Positions 36,298-54,258 of a stretch of 64,000 bases of DNA are shown here, piece after piece. The stretch spans positions 434,001 to 498,000 of the forward strand of contig NZ_SLXS01000002.1 of NCBI RefSeq assembly GCF_004340785.1, read 5' to 3'. How positions within the stretch are numbered: the first letter of the stretch is position 1; every line of letters begins with the position of its first letter. Below the pieces are notes generated by a model, which saw only the letters and a list, made by a program, of their open reading frames with translations, searched no databases and had not been told where the DNA came from. Origin of the DNA: Tumebacillus sp. BK434. GTDB taxonomy: Bacteria; Bacillota; Bacilli; Tumebacillales; Tumebacillaceae. A program made the translations under genes and the position numbers.

Positions 36298-36861
36298 CTA
36301 ACTGACGGAGCCGTTTTTGAAGAACTCCAACTGCCCTTTTGCACGCTCTTCGTCGATCACGCCGAGCTGCTGCGCCACGGCCACGGCAAACTCCACGTAC
36401 GCGGAGCCGACGCCGGTGATGAAGCCCGGCGTGATGACCACATCTTCTTCGACTTGGTTGTCCCAGTTGAACAGGTCTTTGACCAGTTCGTTGTCCGGTT
36501 CTTCGTCCACGCGGAACTTGGCATCGCCAAGCACACCCGCATCGGCGAGCAGCACCGGGCCGCCGCAGATCGCCGCGATCCATTTGTCCTGGCGGCGGAA
36601 CTCGACGACCAGCCGTTTCAGATGGTCTTTGCCGATCAGATCGGCCGGGTCGCCGCCCGGGATGATCAGCAGGTCGTAGTCGTCGACGCTAACGTCTGCC
36701 AACTGCACGTGCGGCGCGAAGCGCAGACCGCTGACGCCGGTCACGAAGTCGCACGGCTCGGCTGCCGTGGTGACGATCTCATATTGGCGGCGGAGTTGAA
36801 TGCCCAGGATGTTAATTTCGAAATCTGCGAAGCCCTCATAAAGTAAAAACAATGCCTTCAT
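36298..36861 (-). CDS. DJ-1/PfpI family protein (glutamine amidotransferase-like fold)
   Basis: A 187-residue single-domain protein of the DJ-1/ThiJ/PfpI superfamily. It shows the strand-turn LIIPGGDPAD near residues 65-74 and the nucleophile elbow AAICGGP with Cys99. Members act as glyoxalases, deglycases, chaperones or transcription-factor domains; which applies here cannot be told, and no DNA-binding domain is attached. The start is the ATG at 36861, with GCAGGTG six bases upstream, rather than an in-frame start 18 bases earlier. It has its own extended -10 promoter and terminator, so it is a single-gene unit between the NRPS operon and the divergent tail operon. A link to either cluster is not shown by the sequence. 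Confidence 0.88.
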   Translation of the reverse strand: MKALFLLYEGFADFEINILGIQLRRQYEIVTTAAEPCDFVTGVSGLRFAPHVQLADVSVDDYDLLIIPGGDPADLIGKDHLKRLVVEFRRQDKWIAAICGGPVLLADAGVLGDAKFRVDEEPDNELVKDLFNWDNQVEEDVVITPGFITGVGSAYVEFAVAVAQQLGVIDEERAKGQLEFFKNGSVS

Positions 36862-36897
36862 TCTTGCACCTGCCTTCATTAAGTTCGTGCTGTTCCG

Positions 36898-36906
36898 ATT
36901 ATATCA
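36898..36906 (-). promoter_or_regulatory. Extended -10 promoter for the DJ-1/PfpI gene
   Basis: The minus strand reads TGATATAAT, a perfect extended -10 (TGnTATAAT), about 37 bases before the ATG at 36861. No good -35 is visible, as expected for this promoter class. Confidence 0.6.
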
Positions 36907-36987
36907 TTCGTTTGAAAATTTTGATATGCCATCTCCTTCAACAACTAGCAGGGTCTGCGGGCTAGTAAGCATGGGAGGTGAGCAAGC

Positions 36988-37779
36988 ATGTCGCTCGATC
37001 TGGTCTCACAGGTCAAAAGCATCATGCATTTTGTGGAAGAAACGTGCCCTGGCCTTCCGCTCCATGTGGAAAAGAGCGGGGCGGTCTCCGCAGCCCCTGC
37101 CCTCTTGGTGGAGCATGTGCGCTCACAGGCCGCTCCGATGACGGCGACGGCCGTGCAGGACTCGTCGTGGTGGAAGATCACCTTTTTCACGCCCGACTAC
37201 TGGGCGGGCAAACGGGTGGCAGGCGCGCTGAAAGACGCCTTGCAGCAAGAGCGCGAGGTGCCGGCGCGGCTGTTCGATTACAGCCACCCCGCCCCGGCAG
37301 CCGAAGCGGCGGCGACGGGCCGATTGCCCGCCGGCGTCTACCGCGTGCAGGTCAGCGGCGTCGGCCGCGACGGGGCGGAGAGCATGCCGTCCGCGCCGGT
37401 CGATGTGACGCTGGCCGAACCGGGCAGCATCCGGCTGGTCATCCCGCGCCTCGAGCACGGCATCGGCGTCTTTCGCAGCTACTGCGTCTATCTTGGCGGC
37501 AGGCTGGCGCTTGTGGCCGAGCAGGATGCGCTGGGCAACACCGTCTGCGCGGTGGACGAGCTGCCCGCACCTGACGCGGCCGCCCCGGTCGAGACGTCTG
37601 CCGTTCTGGAGCGCTACTTCTATGTAGAAGACGTGCAGAGCGTCACGTTCGGCGAGCGCGGCGAGCACGGCCTGTTCGAAGGCATCGTGCGGCTGAAGAC
37701 GCGGCTGACCGTGCCGAAGCGGGCGGAATTCGCTGAAAAAGTGCTTCAAGTTTCGGCGGCGCTAGCGGCTACTAAGTAG
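36988..37779 (+). CDS. Putative tail terminator / completion protein, first gene of the tail operon
   Basis: A 263-residue protein I do not recognise by name. It begins eight bases after GGGAGGTG and lies directly before a small gene and the sheath gene, where contractile-tail clusters carry a tail terminator or completion protein. Residues 1-105 look like a small alpha/beta tail-terminator-type domain. About residues 110-175 read like an Fn3/Ig-type beta sandwich (AGVYRVQVSGVGRDGAESMPSAP, cut here to the idea of strand-loop-strand). About 205-245 is another beta-rich stretch. The assignment comes from position and general character only. The frame has the GC-rich codon usage of its neighbours. 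Confidence 0.45.
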   Translation: MSLDLVSQVKSIMHFVEETCPGLPLHVEKSGAVSAAPALLVEHVRSQAAPMTATAVQDSSWWKITFFTPDYWAGKRVAGALKDALQQEREVPARLFDYSHPAPAAEAAATGRLPAGVYRVQVSGVGRDGAESMPSAPVDVTLAEPGSIRLVIPRLEHGIGVFRSYCVYLGGRLALVAEQDALGNTVCAVDELPAPDAAAPVETSAVLERYFYVEDVQSVTFGERGEHGLFEGIVRLKTRLTVPKRAEFAEKVLQVSAALAATK

Positions 37780-37792
37780 GGAGGTGAGAGGA

Positions 37793-38005
37793 ATGGAAGA
37801 CATCAACGAAATCCCGGAGCAGAGCCGCGAAGCGGTGTTTCAGCTCCAAGCGATCCTGGAGGCCGATTCGTACGAGGTGCTGAACGTTGCTCCGTACGTG
37901 TTGAGAGGCGCGGTCGTCCGCGCCGGGCTGTCGGCGAACGATCTCGTGACCATGACCCAAATCAAGCAGGCGATTCAAGCATTTTTGCAGGCTCCGGCAA
38001 AGTAA
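37793..38005 (+). CDS. Small conserved-position tail-cluster protein (unknown)
   Basis: A 70-residue mainly helical protein starting at the ATG at 37793, six bases after GGGAGGTGAG-type pairing; an in-frame GTG nine bases earlier overlaps that site and is less likely. It ends 33 bases before the sheath gene. PBSX carries a comparably short gene at this place (XkzB-like, from memory). No function can be read from the sequence. Confidence 0.7.
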   Translation: MEDINEIPEQSREAVFQLQAILEADSYEVLNVAPYVLRGAVVRAGLSANDLVTMTQIKQAIQAFLQAPAK

Positions 38006-38038
38006 AACGGAGCGATAACTCTCGGAGGTGAAGGTAAG

Positions 38039-39445
38039 ATGGCAGGAGGAAAATGGACGATTCTCGATACTCTCGATCCGTCTCAACGTTCTGGTTTCTA
38101 TATTAACTTTGTAGCAGATGCAGCAGCAGGTGTGCAGGCAGGCGTGCAAGGCGTCGTGGCGATCCCGGTCACTGCGCCGTGGGGTCCGGAAGGCCAGCTG
38201 GTGAAGATCACGTCCGATCTGGAATTTGCAGCGGCGTTCTCCCGTCTGGAGGAAGGCTCGGCGAAGAATCTCGTGCTGCAAGCGCTGAAAGGCGGCGCCA
38301 GCACCGTTCTGGCCTACCGCATGGCGGTCGGCGCAAAAGCTGCGACCGCGACCTTGAAGGCGGGCGCGACCGATGCGGTCAAAGCGACTGCCGTCTACAC
38401 CGGCGCATACGGCAACGAGCTGACCGTCTCGGTCACCGATGCGGTGGCAGGCGCGAAAGAATTCAAGATCTTCGACGGTGCGAAAGTGCTGGAGAAATTC
38501 AGCTTTGACGGCACTGCGACCGGCCTGATCGCAGCGGTGAACGGCCAGTCCCACTACGTGGAGCTGACCAAGCTTGCCGACGGCACGTTCACCACGGCGG
38601 TCAACGAGCCGCTGACGGGCGGTGCATCCGGTCAGGCGGTGACCAACGCCGAGTATTCGGACGCGCTTGCCGTGCTCGAAGGCCATGCGTATGAATTCAA
38701 CATTTTGACGATCGGTTCCGGCGAGGGCGACCTGCAGGAGACGGCAGCCGAATTCATCCGCCGACTGCGCGGCGAAGGCCACTTTGTGCAGCTCGTGCTC
38801 GGTCACAGCGCCAATGGCGATTTTGACGGTGCGAAAGCGGCAGCGCTCGGCCTGAACCACGAAGGCATCGTCTACCACAACATCGGCGTCAAGCTGGGCG
38901 GCAAGACCCTGACCCCGGCCGAGTTCTCCGGCCGCATCGCCGGCATGATCGCCGGTGCCGGCCCGGATGCCTCGATCACCTATGCGCTGATCGGCGGCAT
39001 CGACGGCCTGGCCAACCTGCTCAACCACAACCAAATCCGCGAAGCCAACAAAGCGGGTCTGGTCGCCGCCTTCTACGACGGTGAGACCTACCGCATCGAA
39101 AAAGGCATCAACACGCTGACGTCCTACTCCGGCACGCAGCATGAAGGCTATTCCAAGATCAAGAACATCTCCGTCCTCGATGCGATCGGCAACGCCCTGA
39201 CCATCTCGGCGAACAAAAACTACATCGGCAAAGTGCTCAACGACGAAGTCGGCCGCGATGCGCTGCTCGGCGCGATCCGCGCGGCGTTCGACATCTTTGA
39301 GCAGGGCCGCCTGATCCAAAAAGGCTCGCTGGTCGGCCTCGACCCGACCCGTCCGTCGGTCGGCGACCAAGTCTTCCTCGACCTGCGCGTCACTCCGATC
39401 GACGCGATGGAAGAAATCTATACAACGATCCGAGTGGGCCGCTAA
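38039..39445 (+). CDS. xkdK: Contractile tail sheath protein (XkdK-like)
   Basis: A 468-residue phage tail sheath protein, close to the size of PBSX XkdK. The N-terminus carries the family feature of a short arm leading to the segment GVVAIPVTAPWGP near residues 39-51, and the C-terminal part (GNALTISANK, then FDIFEQGRLI) matches the conserved sheath core that packs on the tube. The start ATG follows GGAGGTGA by eight bases. Sheath subunits form the contracting outer cylinder that drives the tube into the target. It is followed by the tube gene 35 bases downstream. Confidence 0.92.
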   Translation: MAGGKWTILDTLDPSQRSGFYINFVADAAAGVQAGVQGVVAIPVTAPWGPEGQLVKITSDLEFAAAFSRLEEGSAKNLVLQALKGGASTVLAYRMAVGAKAATATLKAGATDAVKATAVYTGAYGNELTVSVTDAVAGAKEFKIFDGAKVLEKFSFDGTATGLIAAVNGQSHYVELTKLADGTFTTAVNEPLTGGASGQAVTNAEYSDALAVLEGHAYEFNILTIGSGEGDLQETAAEFIRRLRGEGHFVQLVLGHSANGDFDGAKAAALGLNHEGIVYHNIGVKLGGKTLTPAEFSGRIAGMIAGAGPDASITYALIGGIDGLANLLNHNQIREANKAGLVAAFYDGETYRIEKGINTLTSYSGTQHEGYSKIKNISVLDAIGNALTISANKNYIGKVLNDEVGRDALLGAIRAAFDIFEQGRLIQKGSLVGLDPTRPSVGDQVFLDLRVTPIDAMEEIYTTIRVGR

Positions 39446-39480
39446 CGCGGTCCGCTCTCATTTCAGGAGGGTGATTCCAC

Positions 39481-39933
39481 ATGGCGATGAACGCAGGCTA
39501 CGCGATTAACGGTTCCTTCGGCACCTTGTACGAAGGCGATACCTTTATGGCGAATTGCAAAAAAGTAGAAGCAAAAGTAACGATCGACAAAGAGGAGCTC
39601 AAGCTCTCCTCGACCCGCCGCACCGGCTACAAATCGAAAGGCGTCAAAGGCGAAGGCACGATCGGCCTGTACAAAGTCGACTCCAAGTTCCTCGAGCGCG
39701 TCACCTCCTACATGAGCAACGAGCGCTCCGTGCAGTTCGTCGGCCAGCTCCTCGTCGTGCTCGACGATCCGGAGTCTCTGGGCGTGGAGAAAGTGCTGCT
39801 CAAGAACGTCAAGTTCTGGGAAGTCAACTTCGGCTGGACGCTCGACTCGATCCTCGAAGAAGAGATTCCGTTCACCTTCGAAGACATCCAGATCTCGTCG
39901 GCGATCAAAGGCGACGCGACGAAAGCCCGTTAA
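39481..39933 (+). CDS. xkdM: Tail tube protein (XkdM-like)
   Basis: A 150-residue protein of the XkdM/DUF2001 family, which forms the inner tube of PBSX-type tails. The beginning (YAINGSFGTLYEGD) and the repeated beta-strand pattern fit the family, as does the length. The ATG follows CAGGAGGGTG. A hairpin with a T-rich tail comes directly after this gene, so sheath and tube, the two high-copy parts, can be made in excess of what follows. Confidence 0.9.
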   Translation: MAMNAGYAINGSFGTLYEGDTFMANCKKVEAKVTIDKEELKLSSTRRTGYKSKGVKGEGTIGLYKVDSKFLERVTSYMSNERSVQFVGQLLVVLDDPESLGVEKVLLKNVKFWEVNFGWTLDSILEEEIPFTFEDIQISSAIKGDATKAR

Positions 39934-39960
39934 GTTTTGAGCATCGCGTGACTATATAGA

Positions 39961-40002
39961 GGCTGGGAAGGGAATTTCGGTTCCCGCCCAGCCATTATTT
40001 TT
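39961..40002 (+). terminator. Intra-operon hairpin, likely partial terminator after the tube gene
   Basis: GGCTGGG (39961-39967) pairs with CCCAGCC (39987-39993), and inside it GGGAA pairs with TTCCC around TTTCGG. ATTATTTTTC follows. Its position after sheath and tube suggests attenuation rather than the end of the operon. Confidence 0.75.
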
Positions 40003-40019
40003 CTAGGAGGCCACTAGCC

Positions 40020-40463
40020 ATGAAAAAAGAAGAAACGAAATCCCTCGCCATGACCCAAGATCTGTACGTCGACCCGCTCGAAGCGCTGCTGTCTGTCGAT
40101 GCGGACAAGTCCCCGGAAGACGATGTGTACTTGAAGCGCTTGAACGCGAAGTTTCGCGTGCGAGGCCCGAAGCAGTCTGAGTACAAAGCGACCTTGGAGC
40201 GCTGTGTGAAAGAGACGGGCAAAGGCAAGAACCTGCGCCGTTCGCTCGACACCGACATGTTCCAAAAGCTGCTCGTTCACACCTTCACCGTCTCCCCGAA
40301 CCTGGCCGATCCGAAGCTGGCAGAAAAATACGGCGCGCTGGTGGCCGAAGAAGTGGTCGAGAAAGCGCTGCTGCCGGGCGAAGTCGACAAGCTGGCGGAG
40401 CGCATCCTGGAGCTGGGCGGCTACGGTGAAGACGACGACCTGGTGGAAGAAGCAAAAAACTAA
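40020..40463 (+). CDS. xkdN: Tail assembly chaperone, zero-frame product (XkdN-like)
   Basis: A 147-residue protein of the XkdN family, in the place of the lambda gpG-type tail assembly chaperone between tube and tape measure. The ATG follows CTAGGAGGCC. Its last codons are GCA-AAA-AAC before TAA, which form the classic slippery heptamer A-AAA-AAC (40454-40460). The -1 frame after it is open for 53 codons, so a longer chaperone is almost certainly made by programmed frameshifting. Such chaperones coat the tape measure and recruit tube subunits. Confidence 0.88.
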   Translation: MKKEETKSLAMTQDLYVDPLEALLSVDADKSPEDDVYLKRLNAKFRVRGPKQSEYKATLERCVKETGKGKNLRRSLDTDMFQKLLVHTFTVSPNLADPKLAEKYGALVAEEVVEKALLPGEVDKLAERILELGGYGEDDDLVEEAKN

Positions 40464-40621
40464 TTCGCGACGGGCACGGCGAGGCGGTGCTCCTGCACGC
40501 GATCTTTATCGAAACGGGCCGTTTCCCTTCCGAGGTGCAAAAGCTACCTCGCGGGGAAAGGGCCTTTCTTTATGCCTCGATCATTGTGGAGATGGAAAAT
40601 CGTAGAAAAGCGATGAAGTAA
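40460..40621 (+). CDS. Frameshift extension of the tail assembly chaperone (-1 frame)
   Basis: Reading in the -1 frame after the slip at 40454-40460 gives 53 further residues (beginning LIRDGHGEAV and ending in a helical ENRRKAMK segment) to the TAA at 40619-40621, which overlaps the ribosome site of the tape measure gene. The fusion 40020-40621 would be about 200 residues. It has no good start codon or RBS of its own, as expected for a gpGT-type extension. Confidence 0.85.
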   Translation, partial: LIRDGHGEAVLLHAIFIETGRFPSEVQKLPRGERAFLYASIIVEMENRRKAMK

Positions 40622-40633
40622 GGAGGTGAATCT

Positions 40634-43600
40634 ATGTCAGGAGCAACGGATTCTGCGCAAAGGTTAGCGGAATTGACACCGAAAATGAACGCGCTTAACA
40701 ATGCAACCAACTATGCGGTTGGCAGCATGAGTAAACTCGCTTCCATTTCCTTTGATGCGCTCACTCAGTCGGCCAGCCGGCTGTTTGGTGTCATGAAAAG
40801 TGTCGGAGAACAAGCGGTTCAGGTGTCAATGAAGGTCGAAGTACAGGCGGCTACACTCAAAAAATATTATGAAAACCAACTGTACAACCAGTACAAGGCC
40901 CAGAATTTTAGCGATGACGACGCGAGGGATCTTTCAGGCGCACTAGCATCTGGAAAAGCGCAGAAACATTTTCAACAGGTAGAAGCGATCAGAGCCAACT
41001 CGCTGCTAGAAGAAGAGGATATTTTCAAAAGCCTCCTAATGGCGGAGCAACTGAAATCCCTGCAATCTGAAGCAGACATCAATAAAATGGTCGACATCGC
41101 TTCCGGCAGACAGACCGAGATGAAAAACGTGGTCGCAATGTTCCAACAGTTGGAGAATGGCGATTATTTTCGAGGATTTCAGAATGCTGTCGATCTCGGG
41201 GTCGACAAAGACGACCTAAAGAAGATATACAATTTTGAATTCAGCGGCCCTGGTGAGATGAACTTTGACGGTATCAAAGGTGCCGATAATTTGACCGATC
41301 AAGAAAAAAGCGCCAGAGCATCCCAGGCTGTTATGGAACTATTGGCCAAGAATAACATTGGCATGGCTGAGCAGCAGTCGAAGTCGATGTTGGGAACCTG
41401 GGGTACTATTCAACTGCGTCTCGAACAGATCTACCGACGCTCGATGGGGCTAGATGAGAGCGGCACGCCCAAGAAGGGCTCCATTTTTGATGACCTCTTG
41501 AAAGTCAGCAGCGCGGTGGAAAGTGCCTTGAAAAATGTCAGCAACTTGCAGGCGCTGACTGACCCCAACCTGAACATCTGGGAGAAACTCGGAGCGATCA
41601 TGATGTCGCTGAAAGACCAGTTTTCCAACTGGTGGTACAGCGGTGGTTCGGAAACTGTCGAGCAGATCGCAAATGACATGGGCAAAGCGTTAGGCACGGG
41701 CATTACCGCTATTTTCAGCTCCGATATTTCTGCGGATAAAAATGTGTTCGTCTCGCTGGGCTTGACGATCGTCAAGGGGCTTTTGAAAGGTTTTGTCGAA
41801 GGATTCGACCTTGGTGCGATCATGGACTCCACCTTTGGTAAAATTGCACTCCTTCTTGGCGGTGGATGGTTGATAAAGAAGATGTTCACTCCAAAAGGCG
41901 ACTTGCTTTCAGGTCTGATTTCAGGAGCAAAAGGTAAGCTCATTGACGGCGCCTTGTCCAAAATATTCAAAGATACCAACCACCCCAAGGAAATATCCGG
42001 GAAGATAGACACCGTTACGAGTCACCTTGCGACGATCGTCGGTCACCTGCAAAAGATCGTCGAATGCGTTTGCCGACATTGCGATTGCAAGCAGGCAATG
42101 AGTGGAGAATTGTCGGGCGATTCCAATAGCAATCGAAGGAATAGACGCAATAGAACTCGTAATCCAGTTGGGAATCTGCGCAGGAGAGTCGAATCTGACG
42201 ACAGAAGGATCGCTCGAAATAATAGACGTGTCAATCTTGACGAAACGGTAAGGCGGACTGCTGGAAGGGACTCCGCAACAAGCAGAGCAAACGCCAGGTT
42301 CAATGCAGGTGGTACTTCTGGCACCAACGCAGGGGGCAACGTAAGGAACCAGACAGGCGGTACACCAAGCCTCCAGAGATGGGGAAATACGGGTGCTCCT
42401 CCAAGTCTTCAAAGCTGGGGCAATACCGGTGCTCCGCCAAGCCTCCAGAGATGGGGCAATACCGGAGCACCTCCAAGCGTCCAAAGGTGGGGCAATTCAG
42501 GCAGTACCCAAAGCATCCAAAGTTTGAGCAATCCTAGCGCTGCTCCAAGTATCCAGAGATGGAACATGGGAGCTCCCCAAACAAGTCCTTCCACATGGGG
42601 CAATGCTACGACAAACGCAATGTCCGGTGCAATGGCAAGCCCAAGGGCTAATCCAGGGACGAATGCAGGAGGCACAGCAACGAACCAAGCATTGGCAAAC
42701 GCAAGGGCCACGACAGGAATCCAGGCAGGGGGCAATGCACCGACCAGTGGATTAACGAGTCCCGTGACTCCTGCAGGAACGAATGCAGGAGGCACTGCAA
42801 CGACCAGTGCCATGGCAAACGCAAGAGCCGCTACCCGAACGAATGCTGTGCCCGGCGTGACGAGCCAGGCAAGTCCCCATGCGGGACCGCGGGTGGACAT
42901 CCCCGAAGGCGGAAAAAGCTCGCTGCTGAAATCGTTTGCCAAAAAAGGGATCAGACGCATCCCCGGTGTGAGCACCGCATTGTCTGTCTTTGACATCTTT
43001 AAGGCAAAGGACAAGGCTGGCGCAACGATCAAAGCGGCCGGTTCCGGACTGGGAGGCTGGGGTGGAGCCGCAGCAGGCGCTGCGCTTGGGACGGCGATCT
43101 TCCCTGGCGTGGGTACAGTTGTCGGTGGCCTGATCGGCGGTATTGCGGGGGCAATGACCGGCGAAAAGGTCGGAGAAATCACATCGAAGAAACTTGATAC
43201 AGAAGGATTTACCGCTCGCAGGAGTGCGAGTAGACTTTCCCCTTCGCGCGTCACGCCATCGTCTGGAACTGGCAGTATGGCGAGGGATTACAGAAGCTCG
43301 CTGAACAGCATGGAATCGTACAGCAGCGGGTTCCAGACATCGCTGACCAACGGCATGGGAACAACATTCTCCGGTCTGCCGGTGGTGGCGAACCAAGGCA
43401 TGCTCGGGCTGCAGTCAACCGTTGGCGGTGGCTTCAATCGGATGATGGCACAGAGCAATACGCAGTTGTCCGGCATGAGCGGGATGTTTGGCACCAATTT
43501 TAATACGGCGAGCAACACGGCTGTGGCGTCGGTTGCGCCGCTTCCGGGAAAAATCGGCGGCATGCTGAACACAATTCCAGGGCTCGTCAATACTAGCGGA

Positions 43601-44089
43601 ATGAGCTCGATCGGCGTTGGGATCGTCGGCAGCATCTCTGCCGGAATGCTCACCGCGCTCTCCGGGTTGCCTCCGATCGCGCAGTTACTGCTTGGCAATG
43701 CGGCAAACGGCCTGCAGCAAAGCAGTTCCAAAGCTCCGGTCCACTCATCAGACGAGCAGGAAGTGATGAACCGCCGAAAATATTATGCCTATCAATACCA
43801 TGGCGGCGGCCTCGTCGAAAATGAAGGCTGGGCGATCCTCAAGCGCAAAGAGATGGTGCTCGACGAGAACCTCTCCTCCTTCATCCGCACCTCGGCGGCC
43901 ACCTCGACCGGCCAGGGCGTATCCGGCAACAGCAGCGGGCCGGTCAACATCCAGATCGGCGCACTGGCGAACACGCTGCAAGTCCGCGAAGAGGCGGACA
44001 TCCACAACATCGCGGCTGCGCTGTCCAATGAGCTGAAGCGCGTGCTGACCAACCAAGGCGTCTACAGCCAGGCGGAGGTGGCGAGATAA
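40634..44089 (+). CDS. xkdO: Tail tape measure protein (XkdO-like)
   Basis: A 1151-residue protein, the longest of the tail cluster and placed after the chaperone, as tape measures are. The N-terminal 470 residues are largely helical with a hydrophobic stretch near 400-420. Then come a CVCRHCDC cluster (about 478-485), an Arg/Asn-rich basic stretch (about 490-560), 12-residue repeats (578-643), Gly/Ala/Asn/Thr-rich repeats (about 660-740), a glycine-zipper hydrophobic segment (about 805-853) and a C-terminal region ending in NIQIGALANTLQVREEADIHNI-like helix-forming sequence. Base composition drops relative to the neighbours in the first two thirds, which suggests exchange. It sets tail length and may be ejected into the target. 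Confidence 0.88.
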   Translation: MSGATDSAQRLAELTPKMNALNNATNYAVGSMSKLASISFDALTQSASRLFGVMKSVGEQAVQVSMKVEVQAATLKKYYENQLYNQYKAQNFSDDDARDLSGALASGKAQKHFQQVEAIRANSLLEEEDIFKSLLMAEQLKSLQSEADINKMVDIASGRQTEMKNVVAMFQQLENGDYFRGFQNAVDLGVDKDDLKKIYNFEFSGPGEMNFDGIKGADNLTDQEKSARASQAVMELLAKNNIGMAEQQSKSMLGTWGTIQLRLEQIYRRSMGLDESGTPKKGSIFDDLLKVSSAVESALKNVSNLQALTDPNLNIWEKLGAIMMSLKDQFSNWWYSGGSETVEQIANDMGKALGTGITAIFSSDISADKNVFVSLGLTIVKGLLKGFVEGFDLGAIMDSTFGKIALLLGGGWLIKKMFTPKGDLLSGLISGAKGKLIDGALSKIFKDTNHPKEISGKIDTVTSHLATIVGHLQKIVECVCRHCDCKQAMSGELSGDSNSNRRNRRNRTRNPVGNLRRRVESDDRRIARNNRRVNLDETVRRTAGRDSATSRANARFNAGGTSGTNAGGNVRNQTGGTPSLQRWGNTGAPPSLQSWGNTGAPPSLQRWGNTGAPPSVQRWGNSGSTQSIQSLSNPSAAPSIQRWNMGAPQTSPSTWGNATTNAMSGAMASPRANPGTNAGGTATNQALANARATTGIQAGGNAPTSGLTSPVTPAGTNAGGTATTSAMANARAATRTNAVPGVTSQASPHAGPRVDIPEGGKSSLLKSFAKKGIRRIPGVSTALSVFDIFKAKDKAGATIKAAGSGLGGWGGAAAGAALGTAIFPGVGTVVGGLIGGIAGAMTGEKVGEITSKKLDTEGFTARRSASRLSPSRVTPSSGTGSMARDYRSSLNSMESYSSGFQTSLTNGMGTTFSGLPVVANQGMLGLQSTVGGGFNRMMAQSNTQLSGMSGMFGTNFNTASNTAVASVAPLPGKIGGMLNTIPGLVNTSGMSSIGVGIVGSISAGMLTALSGLPPIAQLLLGNAANGLQQSSSKAPVHSSDEQEVMNRRKYYAYQYHGGGLVENEGWAILKRKEMVLDENLSSFIRTSAATSTGQGVSGNSSGPVNIQIGALANTLQVREEADIHNIAAALSNELKRVLTNQGVYSQAEVAR
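42365..42562 (+). repeat. 5.5 tandem copies of a 36-bp coding repeat in the tape measure gene
   Basis: Units beginning CCAAGCCTCCAGAGATGG start at 42365, 42401, 42437, 42473, 42509 and 42545 (last one half). Each encodes a 12-residue unit of the type PSLQRWGNTGAP. The later copies are more diverged. Confidence 0.9.
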
Positions 44090-44817
44090 TGTCGTACGGA
44101 ACGGGTCAGATCGGCCCTTTTTTGTTGACCTATTGGGATCAGGTCGGCGTGAGCAGGACACTGGCGTTTCCTGTTGCGCCGGCCCAGATCAGTGTCAAAT
44201 ACGCTCATGAGTTTCAGGAGTCGAGCGTGCTCGGCCTCGGCCAGACCGCCTTTCGCGGCGGCGATCAGCTGGCGGAGCTTAGCTTCTCCAGCTTTTTCCC
44301 CCGCGATTATGACCGGACGCTCGTCGACACCTGGGCGTACAGTTCCCCGGAATCGTTGAAATCGCCGCAGGAATTCGAGCGTATCATCCACGAGATTCGC
44401 CAGGTCGGCAAACCGTCGCGCCTGACGATCGGCGGAACGTATTTCAACGCCGATGTGATGATCCGCACCTTCGATGTCGAGCATCGCGGCGGCGAACCGG
44501 GCGATGTCTATTTCACGATCACGTTCAAGAAACACCGCACGTTGACGGTGAAGAAAACAGACCCCAAGCAAGGCACTTCCTCGGGCAGCGAACGCCCGCC
44601 GAGCGCCCCGGCCCCAAAAACGCATACCGTCGTCTCGGGGGATACGCTGTGGGCGCTGGCCAAGCGCTATTTGGGCAACGGAGCCAAATACATGGAGATC
44701 TACAACCTCAACACAGGCGTGATCGGCAAAGACCCCAATCTGATCCGCCCCGGCCAAGTTTTGAAGCTCCCGCCGTCTGCCGCAACTGGCGCGCCGAGCG
44801 TCGCCGGGGCGAAATAG
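44089..44817 (+). CDS. xkdP: LysM-bearing tail/baseplate protein (XkdP-like)
   Basis: A 242-residue protein whose ATG overlaps the tape measure stop (TAATG). Residues 1-150 form a beta-rich baseplate domain. A Pro/Ser linker is followed by a LysM domain at about 178-228 (HTVVSGDTLWALAKRYLG, then NLIRPGQVLKLP). LysM binds peptidoglycan, so the protein probably helps position the hub on the cell wall. The order after the tape measure and the size match PBSX XkdP. Confidence 0.9.
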   Translation: MSYGTGQIGPFLLTYWDQVGVSRTLAFPVAPAQISVKYAHEFQESSVLGLGQTAFRGGDQLAELSFSSFFPRDYDRTLVDTWAYSSPESLKSPQEFERIIHEIRQVGKPSRLTIGGTYFNADVMIRTFDVEHRGGEPGDVYFTITFKKHRTLTVKKTDPKQGTSSGSERPPSAPAPKTHTVVSGDTLWALAKRYLGNGAKYMEIYNLNTGVIGKDPNLIRPGQVLKLPPSAATGAPSVAGAK

Positions 44818-44832
44818 TAGGGAGGGACGAAC

Positions 44833-45864
44833 ATGCCAGTCATCACGCTTGACGATCGCAAACTGTTTGGCTACACGCTGGTGTCCTACAACGCCGCCGG
44901 CGTCAAAACGGAACTGAACTCGCTGGTTCAGGATTTCAACTGGAGCGGGGAACTCGACCAGTCTTCGATGAAGCTGGAAGTCAACCTCGCGCCGCATGAG
45001 GAGACCAAAACTTTGGTCACGCCGGGCGACCGTCTGGTGTTGTACGTCTTTCAGACCGACACCGACAAGACGATCCAGCTGTTCTCGGGAATGGTGGTCG
45101 AGAAGCAGATCCAAGGCGGGTATGCCGGGGTGACGCGAGTGGTCGCGCATGACCTGATGTACTTTTTGCTGAAGAACAGCGATGATTTCGTGTTTCGCAA
45201 CATGAAGGCGTCCGACATTTTGAAGAAGCTCTGCGTGCAGTTTGGCGTGGTGGCCGGGGTGATCGACGACTCCGGCCACCGCATCCCAAGCCTCGTCTGC
45301 CGCAACCAGACGCTGTACGACATGGTCGTCAAAGCGCTGCAGATCACGCGTGACGCGACCGGGCAGAAATTCTTCCTGCGCGCCGACGCCAGCGGGATCA
45401 TCCTGCGCAAAAAGCCGAAGGAACCGACGATGTGGGTGTTTCAGGAGAGTCATACGCTGCTCTCGGCCAACGTTTCGGAAAACATCTCGAACATGCGCAA
45501 CCACGTCAAAGTGATCGGGCACGCGGCCAATGAGGAGCAGAGCCCGATGCTGGCCGAAGCGAAAGACGACGCCGCCATCAAGCGGTATGGCCGCTTGCAG
45601 GAGCTGCACACCGCTGAGGAAGACGGCAAAGACAAAGCGTCGGCGCTCTCGGTGGCGCAGACTGTGCTGAAAAAACTGAACAAGCCGGAGCGGACGGCCA
45701 GCATCCAGGCGGTCGCCGTGCACGGCCTGTATCCGGGCGACCCGGTACAGGTTTATGAGCGTCAGACGGGCTTGTCTGGCGTGTATTATGTGAAATCGAT
45801 TCGCACCAGCGTCTCGACGGCCACTGCGACGGTCGACTTGGATCTCGTGTATGAGGATGAATAA
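44833..45864 (+). CDS. xkdQ: Baseplate hub protein (XkdQ-like, late control D type)
   Basis: A 343-residue protein matching the XkdQ hub family in position, length and features: DRLVLYVFQTDT, then the middle segment with RNQTLYDMVVKALQITRDATG, and a C-terminal VHGLYPGDPVQVYERQTG strand pair. Hub proteins form the trimer at the tail tip that connects tube and spike. The ATG follows TAGGGAGGGACG. Confidence 0.87.
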   Translation: MPVITLDDRKLFGYTLVSYNAAGVKTELNSLVQDFNWSGELDQSSMKLEVNLAPHEETKTLVTPGDRLVLYVFQTDTDKTIQLFSGMVVEKQIQGGYAGVTRVVAHDLMYFLLKNSDDFVFRNMKASDILKKLCVQFGVVAGVIDDSGHRIPSLVCRNQTLYDMVVKALQITRDATGQKFFLRADASGIILRKKPKEPTMWVFQESHTLLSANVSENISNMRNHVKVIGHAANEEQSPMLAEAKDDAAIKRYGRLQELHTAEEDGKDKASALSVAQTVLKKLNKPERTASIQAVAVHGLYPGDPVQVYERQTGLSGVYYVKSIRTSVSTATATVDLDLVYEDE

Positions 45865-45892
45865 TGAGAAGGAATAAAGAGGAGGGAAGACG

Positions 45893-46231
45893 ATGGGAGT
45901 GGGTGAATTGGCCGGGCTGATGGCAGACATCGCCAACCGGCAAGTCGGGGCGCAACTGCTGCCGGTCGAGCTCGGCACCATTCTGGAAGACATGGTCAAC
46001 GGCGGCGATCTGCGCATGAAGCCGGACTCGATGAAAATCGATCTGTCCTACAAGCACAAAGAACTGCTCGTAGCTGACAACCTGATCTTGCGCAAAGGCG
46101 ACCGCGTCGTGGCGGTCGGGATCAACGGCGGCCAGAACTACGCCATCCTCTGCCGCCTCAGCAAAAATCCGGCCCGGGCTGTGATTGGCAACGGCCAGTA
46201 TCGGGCCGGGGATCGGACGGTGGTCGAATGA
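45893..46231 (+). CDS. xkdR: Baseplate protein (XkdR/DUF2577-like)
   Basis: A 112-residue beta-rich protein after the hub gene, in the place of the DUF2577/XkdR component. It shows a small beta barrel pattern (LPVELGTILEDM, then LILRKGDRVVAVG). The ATG follows GAGGAGGGAAG, and its stop overlaps the next start (ATGA). Confidence 0.8.
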   Translation: MGVGELAGLMADIANRQVGAQLLPVELGTILEDMVNGGDLRMKPDSMKIDLSYKHKELLVADNLILRKGDRVVAVGINGGQNYAILCRLSKNPARAVIGNGQYRAGDRTVVE

Positions 46232-46680
46232 GCATCATGCCACAATTTCCTGCGCTGGACAACGCGTTTGACCTCGACGCGGCCGGGCAGGCAGCCGCAA
46301 ACACGGGCAACAACCCGGTGTTTGATTATCAACGAGGCGAGTTCGTGTTCACCGCGACCGGACGAGTGGCGGTGTCCGAGGGGCTGGAGAGCCTGAAGCA
46401 CTGGGCGAAAAAAGCGCTGCTCACCGCCCGCGACCGCTTTCTGGTCTATACGACCCAGTACGGCAACGAGGCACACGAACTGATCGGGATCGATCTGCCC
46501 GATGAGATTTTGTTTATGGAGCTGCAGCGCAACATCACCGAAGCGCTGATCTATGACGCGCGGGTGACAGCCTGCACCGATTTTCGCTTTGAGCGTCTGG
46601 CGGACCGCGTGATGTGCGACTTCACGCTGATCACGCCGCTTGGCGCCGAGGCGATGCAGTATACATTGGAGGTGAGCTAG
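46228..46680 (+). CDS. xkdS: Baseplate wedge protein (XkdS/DUF2634, gp25-like)
   Basis: A 150-residue protein of the DUF2634 family, the PBSX counterpart of the gp25/W baseplate wedge. The conserved segment is RVAVSEGLESLKHWAKKAL near residues 49-67. It overlaps the previous gene by 4 bp, and its 3' end carries the GGAGGTGA site of the next gene, so translation is coupled. Confidence 0.87.
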   Translation: MSIMPQFPALDNAFDLDAAGQAAANTGNNPVFDYQRGEFVFTATGRVAVSEGLESLKHWAKKALLTARDRFLVYTTQYGNEAHELIGIDLPDEILFMELQRNITEALIYDARVTACTDFRFERLADRVMCDFTLITPLGAEAMQYTLEVS

Positions 46681-46681
46681 C

Positions 46682-47845
46682 ATGAGTGAAAAAGATCTGT
46701 CGGCCGTATTTCCCTATCAGGATCAGACGGAGGAAGCGATTCGCCGGCGGATGCTGTCGGCGGTCGATCCTTCGTGGGACCAGTCGGAAGGCAGCTTCAT
46801 CTGGGATTCGCTGTCGCCGGCCGCCATCGAGTTTGCGCTCGCCTACATCCGGGCCAAGGAAGTGCTGCAGTGGGGCTTTGCCACCACCACTTTCGGCCCG
46901 TACCTCGACGCGCGCGGCGCAGAGCGCGGGATCTTTCGCCGCCCGGCCCAGAAAGCGGTAGGTGAAGTAACGGTGGAAGGCGCAGCGGGCGTCTACATCC
47001 CCGAAGGCACGATGTTCGCCACAGAAGCGGACGAGCTGAGCGATGAGAACCTGCAGTATTTCGTGACGACCGCAGACGGCACGATTCCGGGCAACAAAAC
47101 GCTGACGCTGCCTGTGGCATGCACGAAAGAGGGGAGCACCGGCAACGTGCTGCCCCAAAAGATCACCATCGCCGTCAGCAAGATTTCCGGTCTGACCAAG
47201 ATCGACAATGCCGACGCGATGAGCGGAGGGGTGGATGAAGAGACGGATGAGGCCTTTTTGAACCGCTATCTGAAGCATGTGCGCAACCCTGGCGCGTCGG
47301 GCAACATCGCGGACTACATCCGCTGGGCGCAAGAGGCGGACGCTTCGGTCGGCAAAGTGCAAGTGAGTCCGATTGCAGGTCAGCCTGGCCACGTGCAAGT
47401 CTTGCTCGTCGATTTGGAAGATCGGCCGGCCACTGCCGGGCTGATCAAAAAAGTGCAGGACTACATCGATCCGAACAGCGCGGGCGGCGGCGCGGGCATG
47501 GCGCCGATCGGAGCGAAGATTCATGTCGAGACGCCGACGCAGTTGGTGCTGTCGCTCCGCCTCCGACTGACCGTCATTCGCGGGTACGAGGAAGCCGGGG
47601 TGAAGCGGGCGGTGGTGCAAAACATCTCCAAATACTTGCGCACGCTCGTGCTCAACCCGGAGGATCGCTTCGTTCGCCTGTCCAAAGTGGGGCAGGCGAT
47701 CATGATGACCGAAGGCGTGCAGGACTTTGACCAGTTGACGATGGCGGTCGACGGCGTGCCGGTCACACAAAACTTGGAGATCGCGGCCGATGCGATGGTC
47801 GTGCTTGCGGAAGCGAACGTCGAATGGCTGCAGGCAGGTGAGTGA
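46682..47845 (+). CDS. xkdT: Baseplate J family protein (XkdT)
   Basis: A 387-residue baseplate J/gp47-like protein. The N-terminus has the typical QTEEAIRRRML motif and EGSFIWDSLSPAAIEFA segment, and the middle shows the GGVDEETDEAFLNRYL signature of the family. Together with XkdS and XkdU it forms the wedges that trigger sheath contraction. It overlaps the upstream frame of the next gene. Confidence 0.92.
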   Translation: MSEKDLSAVFPYQDQTEEAIRRRMLSAVDPSWDQSEGSFIWDSLSPAAIEFALAYIRAKEVLQWGFATTTFGPYLDARGAERGIFRRPAQKAVGEVTVEGAAGVYIPEGTMFATEADELSDENLQYFVTTADGTIPGNKTLTLPVACTKEGSTGNVLPQKITIAVSKISGLTKIDNADAMSGGVDEETDEAFLNRYLKHVRNPGASGNIADYIRWAQEADASVGKVQVSPIAGQPGHVQVLLVDLEDRPATAGLIKKVQDYIDPNSAGGGAGMAPIGAKIHVETPTQLVLSLRLRLTVIRGYEEAGVKRAVVQNISKYLRTLVLNPEDRFVRLSKVGQAIMMTEGVQDFDQLTMAVDGVPVTQNLEIAADAMVVLAEANVEWLQAGE

Positions 47846-47847
47846 CG

Positions 47848-49056
47848 ATGAGCGAACGTGAACGTGACGCCGTCACCCTGGCCAAGCTGCAGACGCTGAT
47901 GTCGTATGCCCCCACTCACTACGGGCGTTCCGAACTCTATCAGCAGTTGATGGAAGCGAACGCCGTGGAGTCGGTCGCGATGCGCAAGATGCTGGAAGAC
48001 GTGTTCGCCCAATTTTTCGTCGAGACGGCCACGTGGGGACTTGTCTTCTGGGAAACGGAGTTTGGCCTGATCACCAACGAGTCGCTGTCGTATCAGATGC
48101 GCCGGGCCCTCGTGCTGCAAAAGATGCGCGGGACGGGCACGATGACCAGCGAAACGATGGCTGCTATCTTGAGCTCGTACGGCGCGCGGACGGCGGAGAT
48201 CGATCAGGTGTTCGAAAGCTACAAGTTTGGCGCTGTGCTGGTCGATTTCATCTTGTCGCCAAAACGTCCCGTCGACGACGTCCACGCCAGCATCCGCGAG
48301 ACGATCAAAACGGTGCGCCCGGTGCATCTGGACTTTTGGATCGAATACCGGGAGCATGTCGCCGAGTCGTTCCGCGCCTGGTACAAAATGCGCACCGGGC
48401 GGGAGTATGCGCACAGCGATACGGTGCGCAGCGAGATGACCACACAGAATGAAGAGATGAAATTCGGGCAGACCGAAAAAAATCTGTTCCATTTGAACCA
48501 CTCGACCATCGGCAATACCATGTTTGTTTCCAGCGAACTAAACGATGAGTCATCCACGTTCTTAGAGCGCTCGTTGGATCATGAACACTACGACATGCAA
48601 GGGAATCTTGGCCAGGCATTTCTTCTCAATGGCTCTCAGGTCAATGGAGCGAACCGGACGCTGCACGCGGCGGTAAGCGCTGAAGGAAGTTCGGAGCTGA
48701 GGCAGACAAGCAGTGAGCAGATGGGCTTGATTGCAGACGGGAAGCCGGCGGTGCTTTTCGGTGTAAACAGCTGGGAAGTTCCATTTCGAGCATGTGCAGA
48801 TGCATACCGTTTCTCCTTTTCGAGACAGCCGGCTCGGCTGTTTCCAGAACGATTGGAAGAGCAGGCTGGAATGGAGCAGACACTGGCTGTTATCGAAGCG
48901 CATCCGCTTCAAGTTTTCGTGAGCCAAGCGGCAATATCAGTAGGGATGCTCAACGCAGCAGACGAAATGGATGTTGCGAAAGAGACCTGCAGTTGCGTGT
49001 TGTATCGGGCCGACCAAGACGGCGTGGAAACAATCTTGGAACAAAGAGCCCTGTAA
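47848..49056 (+). CDS. xkdU: XkdU-like baseplate protein with a C-terminal extension
   Basis: A 402-residue protein. Residues 1 to about 195 match XkdU/DUF2313 (KMLEDVFAQFFVETATWGLVFWETEFGL, shortened here to its FVETATWGL core), which is the full length of PBSX XkdU. The remaining 200 residues have no counterpart in XkdU and are AT-richer, and may add a tail-tip or fibre-attachment domain. The ATG at 47848 (AGGTGAGTGACG upstream) is preferred to the GTG at 47842 that overlaps the previous stop. The stop codon lies in the loop of a hairpin. Confidence 0.85.
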   Translation: MSERERDAVTLAKLQTLMSYAPTHYGRSELYQQLMEANAVESVAMRKMLEDVFAQFFVETATWGLVFWETEFGLITNESLSYQMRRALVLQKMRGTGTMTSETMAAILSSYGARTAEIDQVFESYKFGAVLVDFILSPKRPVDDVHASIRETIKTVRPVHLDFWIEYREHVAESFRAWYKMRTGREYAHSDTVRSEMTTQNEEMKFGQTEKNLFHLNHSTIGNTMFVSSELNDESSTFLERSLDHEHYDMQGNLGQAFLLNGSQVNGANRTLHAAVSAEGSSELRQTSSEQMGLIADGKPAVLFGVNSWEVPFRACADAYRFSFSRQPARLFPERLEEQAGMEQTLAVIEAHPLQVFVSQAAISVGMLNAADEMDVAKETCSCVLYRADQDGVETILEQRAL

Positions 49057-49077
49057 CGTCAGGGCTCTTTCATTTTC
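49043..49077 (+). terminator. Hairpin over the stop codon of the XkdU-like gene
   Basis: AAAGAGCCCT (49043-49052) pairs perfectly with AGGGCTCTTT (49061-49070), and CATTTTCC follows. The T-run is weak, so it probably attenuates transcription between baseplate and fibre genes. Confidence 0.65.
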
Positions 49078-49095
49078 CTAAGGGAGGTTGACCTC

Positions 49096-49635
49096 ATGAA
49101 ACATGAAGAAACAAAAGTAAAACTGGCGATCGGCGATGTCACGATCCAAATGTACAAGGCAGACGGGACGGTGCTCAAAAAACAGGAGCTGCGCAACCTG
49201 ATTGTCAAACAAGCGAGCGTTCTGATGGCCCGCCGAATGGCGCCGAGCGAGAATGTCGCCAACGGCTTCCAGTATCTCGCCCTCGGTAAAGGCGTTGGCA
49301 CAGGCAATCTACAGGAACCGCAGGTGGAAAATCCGGATCTGTCAGCGCTGCGGGATGAAGTGTATCGCAAGCCGATCACGACGTGGCGCTATTTGAACAG
49401 CGACGGCAGCGTTTCTGCCGCTCCGACCCATATCTTGGAACTTACAACTGAGATTTTGGAGGGTGAAGGTGTGCCGCAGGAGGCGGAATCTGTGCCGTTT
49501 ACGGAGATGGGGCTGTTCGGTGGCGATGCGTCGGGTGCTAAAGATTCTGGCTTCATGTTCAACCATAAAGTGTTCCCGGTCTGGAACAAGCCGATAGATG
49601 CCCGCTTGCGCATCGTCTGGAAGATTACCTTCTAA
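49096..49635 (+). CDS. Tail-tip protein of unknown role
   Basis: A 179-residue beta-rich protein between the baseplate and fibre genes. The start follows AAGGGAGGTTGACCTC. Recognisable features are an N-terminal strand-rich stretch (VKLAIGDVTIQMY), a segment LRNLIVKQASVLMARRM and a C-terminal FPVWNKPIDARLRIVWKITF-like strand, a pattern common in small phage tail-fibre connector or collar proteins. The function is inferred from place only. Confidence 0.7.
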   Translation: MKHEETKVKLAIGDVTIQMYKADGTVLKKQELRNLIVKQASVLMARRMAPSENVANGFQYLALGKGVGTGNLQEPQVENPDLSALRDEVYRKPITTWRYLNSDGSVSAAPTHILELTTEILEGEGVPQEAESVPFTEMGLFGGDASGAKDSGFMFNHKVFPVWNKPIDARLRIVWKITF

Positions 49636-49649
49636 AGGAGGGCTGAGAC

Positions 49650-51299
49650 GTGACCTATACGCCAAGATTCACCCGACCGCCGCAGGGCAATTATGACCCG
49701 GACAAAGCGTTCACTCAAATCCGGGCGGGCAGTGAGGCATATCTGCTGGAAGATGAAGTGAACGAAATGCAAGCGATCCTTCAAGAACAGGCTCGAAGTG
49801 TAGCACGAGACCTGTATCGGGACGGATTAAAAGAGCGACTGGTCGTCAAACGGGACACGAGCCGGGCGAACGTCTATCGCATCGCTCCGTTTGAAGTGAT
49901 GGCAGACGGCGTTAGCGTCCGCGTAACGGGTATCAACACAACAGGCACCCCGCGAACGGAAGCGGATGGCGAAGATAATTTGATCCTGATTCCAGCACCG
50001 CCGTTCGACAGTGAGGAGGAGCGCTACGACCCGGTGCTGCTTGAAGTGTTTGAGGAGGAAGTGCATGCCGGTCAAACGTTGTACCGACACGGAGCCCAAT
50101 CTAGCGATTTCACCATACCGAATGACCTCTGCGATAACCGGGTCGGCGCGGAAACTTCGCGCCGGATGCAAATGAAATCGGTATTGCGTGTGGTGGAGGA
50201 TGACCTGAGTGACTGGCAATATGACCTGAACGGCAGCCCTCTGACCCATTCGGAAGGCTGGGTGTTCCGCTCAGCTGCGGGGCGCACTGTGATTTGGCTG
50301 TTCACTCTTGCTTATTTGCCGGGTCAACAAGGTAATGAGCATGTCTTCGAGATGGCGCGATTGTCAAGCCTGAGGGATAGCGTCATTCCCTCTGGTTTCA
50401 TCAACACGCAGAAACTGGCGTACCAAGCAGTGACGTCAGATAAAATGGCCCCCGAAGTCGTCACCGCGGAAAAGCTGTCGAACGGCGCTGTAACGAGCAG
50501 TAAACTTGCCGCGAATGCGGTGAAAACCACGCATCTTGAAAATGCTGTGGTCACCGTCGACAAAATCGGCACAAATGCGGTCACGACATCGAAGATCGCC
50601 GACGGCCAGGTGACGATCGAGAAACTGGCGAACACAGCGATGAATACGTTGAATGACAGGATGGGACTGTCAGTTCCATCAGATGGATTTATTCCAATTC
50701 TGCGTTTCTTTCAGTGGTGGTCGGCGATCGGTAATTTTCCGGTCAAATGGGCGGGCGGACATTCGGCAGCAGAATGGGGAAGTCAAGTACTGCAAAAAGA
50801 GGGGCAAGCCTGGAAAGTTTTCGAAGGCATTACCTATATGAGCAGAACACATGCCACTTGGCAGGATAAAAAGATTCACATGTACATGGGGAACGCTGGC
50901 GCCTTAGCCGACAATGTCTCCATGTATTGTTTACAGAACATTACAAACACGACGGCAAGCGTTACGCCCAACGCGAACTATTCCAGTTATGCTGGTCAAA
51001 ACGCGGCGGCAAGCGCATCGGTTGCGTACAAGGTTTTTGATCCGGCAGGGAAGCCGGAATTGACGGACAATTTCACGGAAACGGTTACGCTAACCACTAC
51101 GAACATCGGCAGCGGTGGCTGGACGGTTCAAGTGCCAGCAGGACATGTGATGATTTTTATCTTGAAGTCCAGCCCATATTTGTCCTCAGGAAATCTGTAC
51201 TACAACATGCATGAGTTGCTTGCCCCGATAAGCCAAATGCCAAACTTTGCACCCCATCTGCCTACGTATCGCCGTCTCTTAAACGGTAAATGGGACTAA
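49650..51299 (+). CDS. Tail fibre protein 1
   Basis: A 549-residue protein with a GTG start 6-8 bases after AAAGGAGGG. Residues 1-230 form an N-terminal attachment region (PPQGNYDPDKAFTQ, then LLEDEVNEMQAI) that is clearly related to the next fibre gene and resembles DUF4815-type fibre bases. About residues 250-335 hold a run of 10-residue pseudo-repeats (AVTSDKMAP, AVTSSKLAA, AVTTSKIAD and so on), typical of trimeric fibre shafts. The last 200 residues are a beta-rich tip, presumably the receptor-binding part, AT-richer than the shaft. Confidence 0.85.
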   Translation: MTYTPRFTRPPQGNYDPDKAFTQIRAGSEAYLLEDEVNEMQAILQEQARSVARDLYRDGLKERLVVKRDTSRANVYRIAPFEVMADGVSVRVTGINTTGTPRTEADGEDNLILIPAPPFDSEEERYDPVLLEVFEEEVHAGQTLYRHGAQSSDFTIPNDLCDNRVGAETSRRMQMKSVLRVVEDDLSDWQYDLNGSPLTHSEGWVFRSAAGRTVIWLFTLAYLPGQQGNEHVFEMARLSSLRDSVIPSGFINTQKLAYQAVTSDKMAPEVVTAEKLSNGAVTSSKLAANAVKTTHLENAVVTVDKIGTNAVTTSKIADGQVTIEKLANTAMNTLNDRMGLSVPSDGFIPILRFFQWWSAIGNFPVKWAGGHSAAEWGSQVLQKEGQAWKVFEGITYMSRTHATWQDKKIHMYMGNAGALADNVSMYCLQNITNTTASVTPNANYSSYAGQNAAASASVAYKVFDPAGKPELTDNFTETVTLTTTNIGSGGWTVQVPAGHVMIFILKSSPYLSSGNLYYNMHELLAPISQMPNFAPHLPTYRRLLNGKWD

Positions 51300-51311
51300 A
51301 TTGTGCTTGGA

Positions 51312-51338
51312 GGAGGGGAACTTCCCCTCCCTTTTATT
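51312..51338 (+). terminator. Hairpin between the two fibre genes
   Basis: GGAGGGGAA (51312-51320) faces TTCCCCTCC (51322-51330), effectively a 7-bp GC-rich stem with a 5-base loop, followed by CTTTTATT. It could be a partial terminator. Confidence 0.7.
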
Positions 51339-51353
51339 AGGAGGTGACCTGGA

Positions 51354-52328
51354 ATGACGAAACATCCTGTATTCAATCGGAACCCGAAAGGAAATTTCAA
51401 TAAAGACAATCAGTTTACGCAGGTATTGATCGGCTCTGACGCCGTGTTGCTCGAAGATGAGCTGAATGAGATGCAAGCGATCCAAAGTAGCCGCGTTGAT
51501 GAACTGTACGATCTTCAGGACTACGACGGTGGAAAAACAGGGCTGGATTCCAACTTTGTCTATGGGGAGACATACGCTCATGAAATTCCCGCTTTCACTG
51601 CAAAAGTCGCGGGGCACATGATTCGTGTGTCTGGCTATGGAAACACGGGACAGTTTTCAACTGTACCAGAAGACAGCAATATTGTGTGCTTGGCACCCAT
51701 GCCGGAAGGACAAACTGAGCAAAGCGACCTGGTCTTTTTGGAAGTGAAGGAAGAAGTTCTGACGGGACACGAACCGCTTTTTCAACACGGCAATTTGGAT
51801 GCTAACTATCGATTGGATAATAAGTTGATCGATCCTCGCGTTGGACATGAAACAGCTCGTCGCCTCCAACTTCGAAGCAAACTGCGTTTGTTGCCAAACG
51901 TTGGTGAACTTCCAGCTAATCAACCGTGGCCATCGGCAATTTTTGCACTCGACTCTGCACTAGACCCATTAGGCGGACGCTATGTGTATGACCAGAATGG
52001 CAGATGGCGCTCAGAGAACGGCTACTATGCGATCCCCATCGCCACAGGGGTGAAGTACAAAGATCGCTTATATGGTATTACTACAGCTTTGTGGCCTGAG
52101 TTGATTAAAACCTACCTGACATACAGTGAAAGCGGTGATCTTATACAGGTCGATACTCGGTTAGGAGGAGTCTTTGTGCTGAGCAGCACAAAGATCACTC
52201 ATCGAGCCGAAGGGATCGATAAGGTTACAAATGTAAAGGACGGACGGGTGACAACTTGGCAATGCGCTTATGGATCGGTACCAGGCGGAGGAACTGGGAT
52301 GTATGCAGTGTTTAAAAAGGAATCATAA
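51354..52328 (+). CDS. Tail fibre protein 2 (paralogous base, different tip)
   Basis: A 324-residue protein whose first 190 residues align with fibre 1 (PVFNRNPKGNFNKDNQFTQ, LLEDELNEMQAI, RVGHETARRLQLRSKLRL against the matching parts), while its C-terminal 130 residues differ and lack the shaft repeats. It begins eight bases after AGGAGGTGACC. Two fibres with the same base and different tips imply either two receptors or alternate adsorption proteins. Confidence 0.82.
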   Translation: MTKHPVFNRNPKGNFNKDNQFTQVLIGSDAVLLEDELNEMQAIQSSRVDELYDLQDYDGGKTGLDSNFVYGETYAHEIPAFTAKVAGHMIRVSGYGNTGQFSTVPEDSNIVCLAPMPEGQTEQSDLVFLEVKEEVLTGHEPLFQHGNLDANYRLDNKLIDPRVGHETARRLQLRSKLRLLPNVGELPANQPWPSAIFALDSALDPLGGRYVYDQNGRWRSENGYYAIPIATGVKYKDRLYGITTALWPELIKTYLTYSESGDLIQVDTRLGGVFVLSSTKITHRAEGIDKVTNVKDGRVTTWQCAYGSVPGGGTGMYAVFKKES

Positions 52329-52351
52329 TTACGCCTAGAGGAGGGAGCTTC

Positions 52352-52735
52352 ATGTTACAAATCGTGACCGGAAGAGTGACAGTCGGAGGCGGTGTGCGGC
52401 TTGCGAGGGAAGCGCAGCGACCGATTCTTGTGACAGACACCAAAACAGTCTCAACTGCAGGGACGGTCCTTGCAACGCTTACGGTACCGGCCGGGCAGAC
52501 CTACCACCTCTCTGAAGTCAGCGTTGGCGGTGACACCGCGAACCGCATTGATGTTGTCATTCAGGGAAAAACGGTGCACACCATGTTCTACCCGGGGTAT
52601 GGGATGCACAACAAAACTTACGCAGCGATGCCAAAAGCATATGGCGGCGAGACGATACAAGTGATCAGCCGGCAAGCGACAGCCGGGATGCACACGGCAA
52701 CGATTATCGCTCACAAAGCAACTGAATTGTTCTAA
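52352..52735 (+). CDS. Small beta-rich tail-associated protein (unknown)
   Basis: A 127-residue protein after the second fibre gene, starting at an ATG nine bases after GAGGAGGGAG. It is beta-rich with no membrane segment (TGTVLATLTVPAGQTYHLSEVSV is a strand pattern, abbreviated in meaning). It may be a fibre tip or a fibre chaperone. I do not recognise the family. Confidence 0.7.
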   Translation: MLQIVTGRVTVGGGVRLAREAQRPILVTDTKTVSTAGTVLATLTVPAGQTYHLSEVSVGGDTANRIDVVIQGKTVHTMFYPGYGMHNKTYAAMPKAYGGETIQVISRQATAGMHTATIIAHKATELF

Positions 52736-54257: not shown

Positions 54258-54258
54258 A

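Follow-up and report, generated by a model that had tools for sequence, protein, structure and literature searches.

In Tumebacillus sp. BK434, a short gene between the tail tube and tape measure genes of a contractile tail ends in a possible ribosomal slip site. The question raised by this locus is whether the gene gives rise to one protein or, when some ribosomes change frame, also to a longer one. We analyzed the locus within a stretch of 64,000 nucleotides, here called the window; all features are on the plus strand unless stated otherwise. The 0-frame product of the gene (40020-40463; 147 amino acids) matches PF08890 (Phage_TAC_5/XkdN) with an E-value of 2e-22 and 79.9 bits against a curated cut-off of 27, and the alignment covers the whole domain (profile positions 1-135 of 135). 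The product also matches phrog_389 in the PHROG collection, described as 'tail protein XkdN-like'. Profile comparison leads to PDB entry 3KLU, YqbN of B. subtilis (E 1.6e-31), which is also the top PDB match of the AlphaFold model of the chaperone (E 2e-4). By these sequence and model matches, the gene encodes a Phage_TAC_5/XkdN-like tail assembly chaperone, the analogue of gpG of phage lambda. In virions of phage phiCD508, the XkdN-like protein was not detected (PMC11948020), as expected for an assembly chaperone. The chaperone is 90% identical between the window and a congener, genome G005.

The gene is flanked by the genes for the tail tube protein (39481-39933) and the tape measure protein (40634-44089), as in systems of the gpG/gpGT type. 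At its 3' end, the in-frame codons of positions 40449-40463 are GAA GCA AAA AAC TAA. The slippery heptamer A-AAA-AAC thus occupies 40454-40460, in the phase X-XXY-YYZ and directly before the stop codon TAA (40461-40463). The -1 slip would be followed by 53 sense codons (40460-40618) and a TAA at 40619-40621. The -1 frame extension (40457-40621, KLIRDGHGEAVLLHAIFIETGRFPSEVQKLPRGERAFLYASIIVEMENRRKAMK) would form a gpT-like domain, and the predicted fusion has about 200 amino acids. The stop codon of the extension overlaps the Shine-Dalgarno sequence AAGGAGGTGA (40620-40629) of the tape measure gene, whose ATG lies at 40634. A preliminary description of the locus had placed the heptamer in the right phase immediately before the stop and had counted 53 open codons in the -1 frame up to the ribosome binding site of the tape measure gene; the heptamer was confirmed, and coordinates and count are correct. 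The gpG/gpGT layout that it had proposed agrees with the protein family, the position between tube and tape measure, the phase of the heptamer, and the conservation of both the -1 frame and the stop.

On its own, the window says little about whether the heptamer is used. The bare heptamer occurs seven times where 4.6 occurrences are expected, and the +1 frame is likewise open at this place, for 47 codons. Since such heptamers arise by chance and long open frames come easily in GC-rich DNA, the case for a frameshift rests on conservation. Two sources of homologues were used: phage records, searched by protein similarity, and 399 genomes of the same class, searched with a profile. Because the profile used for collection includes the terminal Lys-Asn, only the codons AAA-AAC and the A before them, and not the amino acids, count as independent evidence. 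Loci from a pattern scan, which had been selected on the heptamer, were kept out of the conservation count. Alignment-based scans of the sequence collection gave no result, as they lacked conserved stretches, and no relative came up when genome contigs were scanned with the protein of the window.

The heptamer A-AAA-AAC was found in phase in 99 of 99 distinct scorable loci sampled by homology, which represent 69 clusters at 80% identity. From the codon usage of the same genes, 0.078 would be expected per locus (about 8%). The heptamer lies directly before the stop in 93 of these loci, 3 nt (one codon) before it in five, and 18 nt (six codons) before it in one. All 99 also carry the extension, with a median length of 60 codons (47-72 codons in 98 loci, and 18 in locus L170). 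A stop conserved without the downstream frame, which the preliminary description had named as speaking against a frameshift, was not seen in any of them.

Next, we considered the substitutions within the extension. Among related loci compared in 36 disjoint pairs, 243, 146 and 701 substitutions fell on positions 1, 2 and 3 of the -1 codons. The 0-frame tail showed a similar pattern in the same type of comparison (68/41/245). This third-position bias indicates that the -1 frame is translated and selected; judged from the substitutions, it is under purifying selection, i.e., coding. In-phase heptamers in 99 of 99 loci, together with substitutions that follow the -1 codon phase, exclude chance. 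These two results also bear on the idea that the heptamer and the open frame are accidental remains and that only the 147-amino-acid chaperone is made. The near-expected number of heptamers in the window and the ease with which open frames arise would agree with this idea, as would a 1-nt deletion in the G005 extension, but neither the conservation nor the bias would, and the extensions of the window and G005 are near-identical as far as the deletion. We regard accidental remains as barely conceivable.

The deletion in G005 (locus L002, around 2020-2030) changes CGCGGGG to CGGGGG late in the extension and alters its last part. The codons past the deletion still match the window, with mostly synonymous differences. 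The deletion is either a sequencing error or recent decay. The truncation to 18 codons in L170 is comparable to it.

The extensions of the relatives align as one domain that starts with KLI, a motif that is almost invariant at the junction. In the window, this domain is predicted to be all-helical (mean pLDDT 88.7). Members match the PHROG families phrog_5646, phrog_10943, phrog_20560 and phrog_33439, which have no assigned function and, going by these matches, probably represent the extension called as an ORF. In Pfam, no convincing model for the extension was found. The preliminary description had also stated that ordinary gene calling overlooks this region, and this is borne out by the phage records, which show either a gap or only the 3' part as 'hypothetical protein'. 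The hypothetical ORFs annotated in PBP180, Jimmer2 and phiCDKH02 end precisely on the stop codon of the extension. Relative to MismyG, the record of EJ-1 contains an additional base immediately 5' of the slip site, so that both parts form a single ORF, through either a natural fusion or a record error.

That several phages have the 3' part annotated in this way could also mean that the extension is a small gene in its own right, which has its own start codon and whose translation is coupled to the end of xkdN. In the window, an in-frame GTG preceded by GAGG is indeed present at codon 10 of the extension. Across the family, however, ATG, GTG and TTG are absent from the first 10 codons in 45 of 69 clusters and from the first 20 codons in 32 of 69, and a start codon together with a Shine-Dalgarno core is found within the first 30 codons in only 14 of 69. 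Moreover, codons 3-10 already show the bias of the -1 frame (22/14/85), upstream of any conserved start codon, and the KLI junction is almost unchanged. A separate gene would also leave the invariance of the heptamer without a reason. Such a gene is thus highly improbable, albeit less so than accidental remains. The reading that we prefer is that the gene encodes an XkdN/TAC_5 tail assembly chaperone and that its expression involves a programmed -1 ribosomal frameshift, and the comparative sequence evidence makes this very likely.

We looked for stimulatory RNA signals on both sides of the heptamer. As a 3' stimulatory structure we accepted a stable fold beginning approximately 5-9 nt 3' of the heptamer. 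In the 69 clusters, 55-nt windows starting 3-5 nt past the heptamer had a mean z of -1.92 against dinucleotide shuffles, compared to -0.25 to -0.08 at other offsets. When synonymous codons were shuffled so that the -1 protein was kept (codons 3-20), the mean z was -1.78 ± 0.18 (s.e.m.), whereas control stretches gave approximately -0.3. The predicted stems often begin 7-8 nt past the heptamer. This family-wide 3' fold, predicted from sequence, is a probable stimulator. When one stem register was applied across the whole class, 429 of 648 pairs were canonical versus 413 ± 7 by arm permutation, and alternative registers gave similar covariation. The covariation is weak because the stems sit in different registers.

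The same fusion could arise without ribosomal frameshifting if RNA polymerase slipped on the six A residues, so that some transcripts contained one extra A. The homopolymer that this explanation needs, a run of six A, does occur and is conserved. Two indirect constraints argue against it. The run consists of exactly six A in 207 of 207 distinct loci (108 of which were selected on the pattern), preceded always by C or T and followed always by C in the X-XXY-YYZ phase, and a selected RNA fold just 3' is expected for slippage of ribosomes, not of polymerase. Polymerase slippage is very unlikely, though the least improbable of the three alternatives to a programmed ribosomal frameshift.

In the window itself, a candidate 3' hairpin and putative stimulator is predicted at 40465-40502, with 40465-40469 pairing with 40498-40502 and 40472-40477 with 40487-40492. 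Its predicted energy is -17.7 kcal/mol, with a z of 0.13 against shuffles and -0.35 with synonymous-codon shuffles. Being no more stable than shuffled sequences, this hairpin was rejected as a proven stimulator. In the first 23 extension codons, only 2 of 23 third positions differ from G005, compared to a 0-frame rate of 0.37 (P 0.003). A 3' stimulator in the window is therefore plausible as far as its sequence goes. An upstream stimulator resembling a Shine-Dalgarno sequence was also rejected: anti-Shine-Dalgarno duplex energies equaled the synonymous null (-4.31 and -4.26). The codons that directly precede the heptamer (40439-40453 in the window) show fewer synonymous changes throughout the family, two-fold codons included (14/121 versus 53/175), and a Shine-Dalgarno-like signal does not account for this.

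The following account of the slip, of its efficiency, and of what the two products do is inferred. Most ribosomes would terminate at TAA 40461-40463 and release the 147-amino-acid chaperone. A minority would slip back by one base with tRNA-Lys (on AAA) and tRNA-Asn (on AAC) bound to A-AAA-AAC, re-pair with AAA-AAA, and read the 53 further codons to give the fusion of about 200 amino acids. As in lambda, the chaperone part may coat the tape measure protein, and tail tube subunits may be recruited by the extension; the ratio of the two products would then govern tail assembly. In E. coli, A-AAA-AAC reportedly slips far less readily than A-AAA-AAG (PMC5009743). This weaker slipperiness, a figure from a host other than the one studied here, fits low-level use.

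Frameshifted tail assembly chaperones are a known kind, represented by lambda gpG/gpGT and P2 E/E+E', and this XkdN-like gene is another member. As in lambda, the chaperone gene lies between the genes for the major tail protein and the tape measure, and a -1 slip near its 3' end would yield a C-terminal extension at a low level (PMC5009743 for lambda). In contrast to lambda, where the heptamer is G-GGA-AAG, the slip site here is A-AAA-AAC, the chaperone belongs to PF08890, and the tail is contractile. With P2, as annotated in its record, the system shares the contractile tail, the position between tube and tape measure, the probable -1 slip near the stop, and an extension that ends at the start of the tape measure gene. 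The P2 heptamer, however, is T-TTT-TTG, and the chaperone parts have no detectable profile similarity. The P2 extension and that of the window family have a short motif in common (hhalign probability 53, E 1.4e-4, 16 columns), which is only suggestive as a sequence sign of kinship. The closest counterparts are XkdN of PBSX-like elements and of phages of Bacillus, Brevibacillus, Clostridioides, Lactobacillus and Streptococcus, which have the same family, the same heptamer, and a homologous extension. The records of the XkdN relatives examined are those of phages or defective phages, whereas the neighborhood in the window consists of tail genes only. For a cluster of HK97-like tail assembly chaperones, which have the frameshift in common with XkdN but belong to a different protein family, the GeneTack study measured 6-7% frameshifting (PMC3711429). 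No measurement for the XkdN family was found in our literature search, beyond whose reach lay key subscription papers, so an earlier listing is possible.

The surrounding tail-only gene cluster (36988-56522) was delimited by domain and PHROG matches, ORF inspection, and collinearity with G005. It comprises genes for an XkdK-like contractile tail sheath (38039-39445; PF04984 and related domains, phrog_279 with E 2e-88), the XkdM-like tube protein (PF09393, E 8e-32), the chaperone, and the tape measure protein (1151 amino acids; assigned by position and by its C-terminal half, which weakly matches PHROG tape-measure families). It further contains genes for a LysM protein, a YQBQ-like hub, a sheath initiator, baseplate J, a Gp48-like protein, fibers and an amidase, and two sigma-factor-like genes. 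Known families and ORF inspection revealed no capsid, portal, terminase or integrase gene within 36988-56522, with the qualification that a very divergent head gene could escape both. A contractile tail with lysis genes and no recognized capsid, portal or terminase is the gene content of a head-less contractile tailocin.

The cluster sits between peptide-synthetase genes and the gene for a large ferritin-like protein. It occupies the same chromosomal place in G005 (36815-56518 of the window versus 6639-28080 of the joined G005 stretch), and both flanks, the peptide-synthetase genes and the region after 57909, are collinear as well. Exceptions to the collinearity are diverged tape measure and fiber parts and an IS3-type insertion found in the window alone. 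The shared place and the collinear flanks point to a domesticated, vertically inherited contractile tail. From its genes, the cluster looks like a domesticated, tailocin-like contractile tail, and the upkeep of the extension in it suggests that tail assembly still depends on the extension.

What this system adds to the known kind is a heptamer that is invariant across the family, an RNA signal 3' of it, and a setting of tail genes only. In Gram-positive hosts, it combines an invariant heptamer, the weaker A-AAA-AAC in place of A-AAA-AAG, with a candidate 3' stimulator. We lean somewhat toward a broader view, in which a single fixed recoding cassette (exactly A6C, a stop usually directly after it, a selected 3' stem-loop, and a helical extension) is common to the PF08890 family and is kept even in a head-less domesticated tail; several function-unassigned PHROG families would then be the extension, which may be the same domain as P2 E'. 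The annotation of a large family is corrected, as most of the phage records examined lack the extension or list it as a hypothetical ORF of its own.

A few further features of the cluster were observed. The tape measure protein has 1281 amino acids at the same place in G005, and most of its length has no DNA match between the two genomes. The amidase encoded at 53100-53837 carries an S-layer homology domain. The sigma-factor-like genes (54803-55390 and 55852-56238) lie at the end of the cluster and possibly regulate it. Beside this end lies an IS3-type transposase pair (56586-57778, minus strand), which does not occur at that place in G005.
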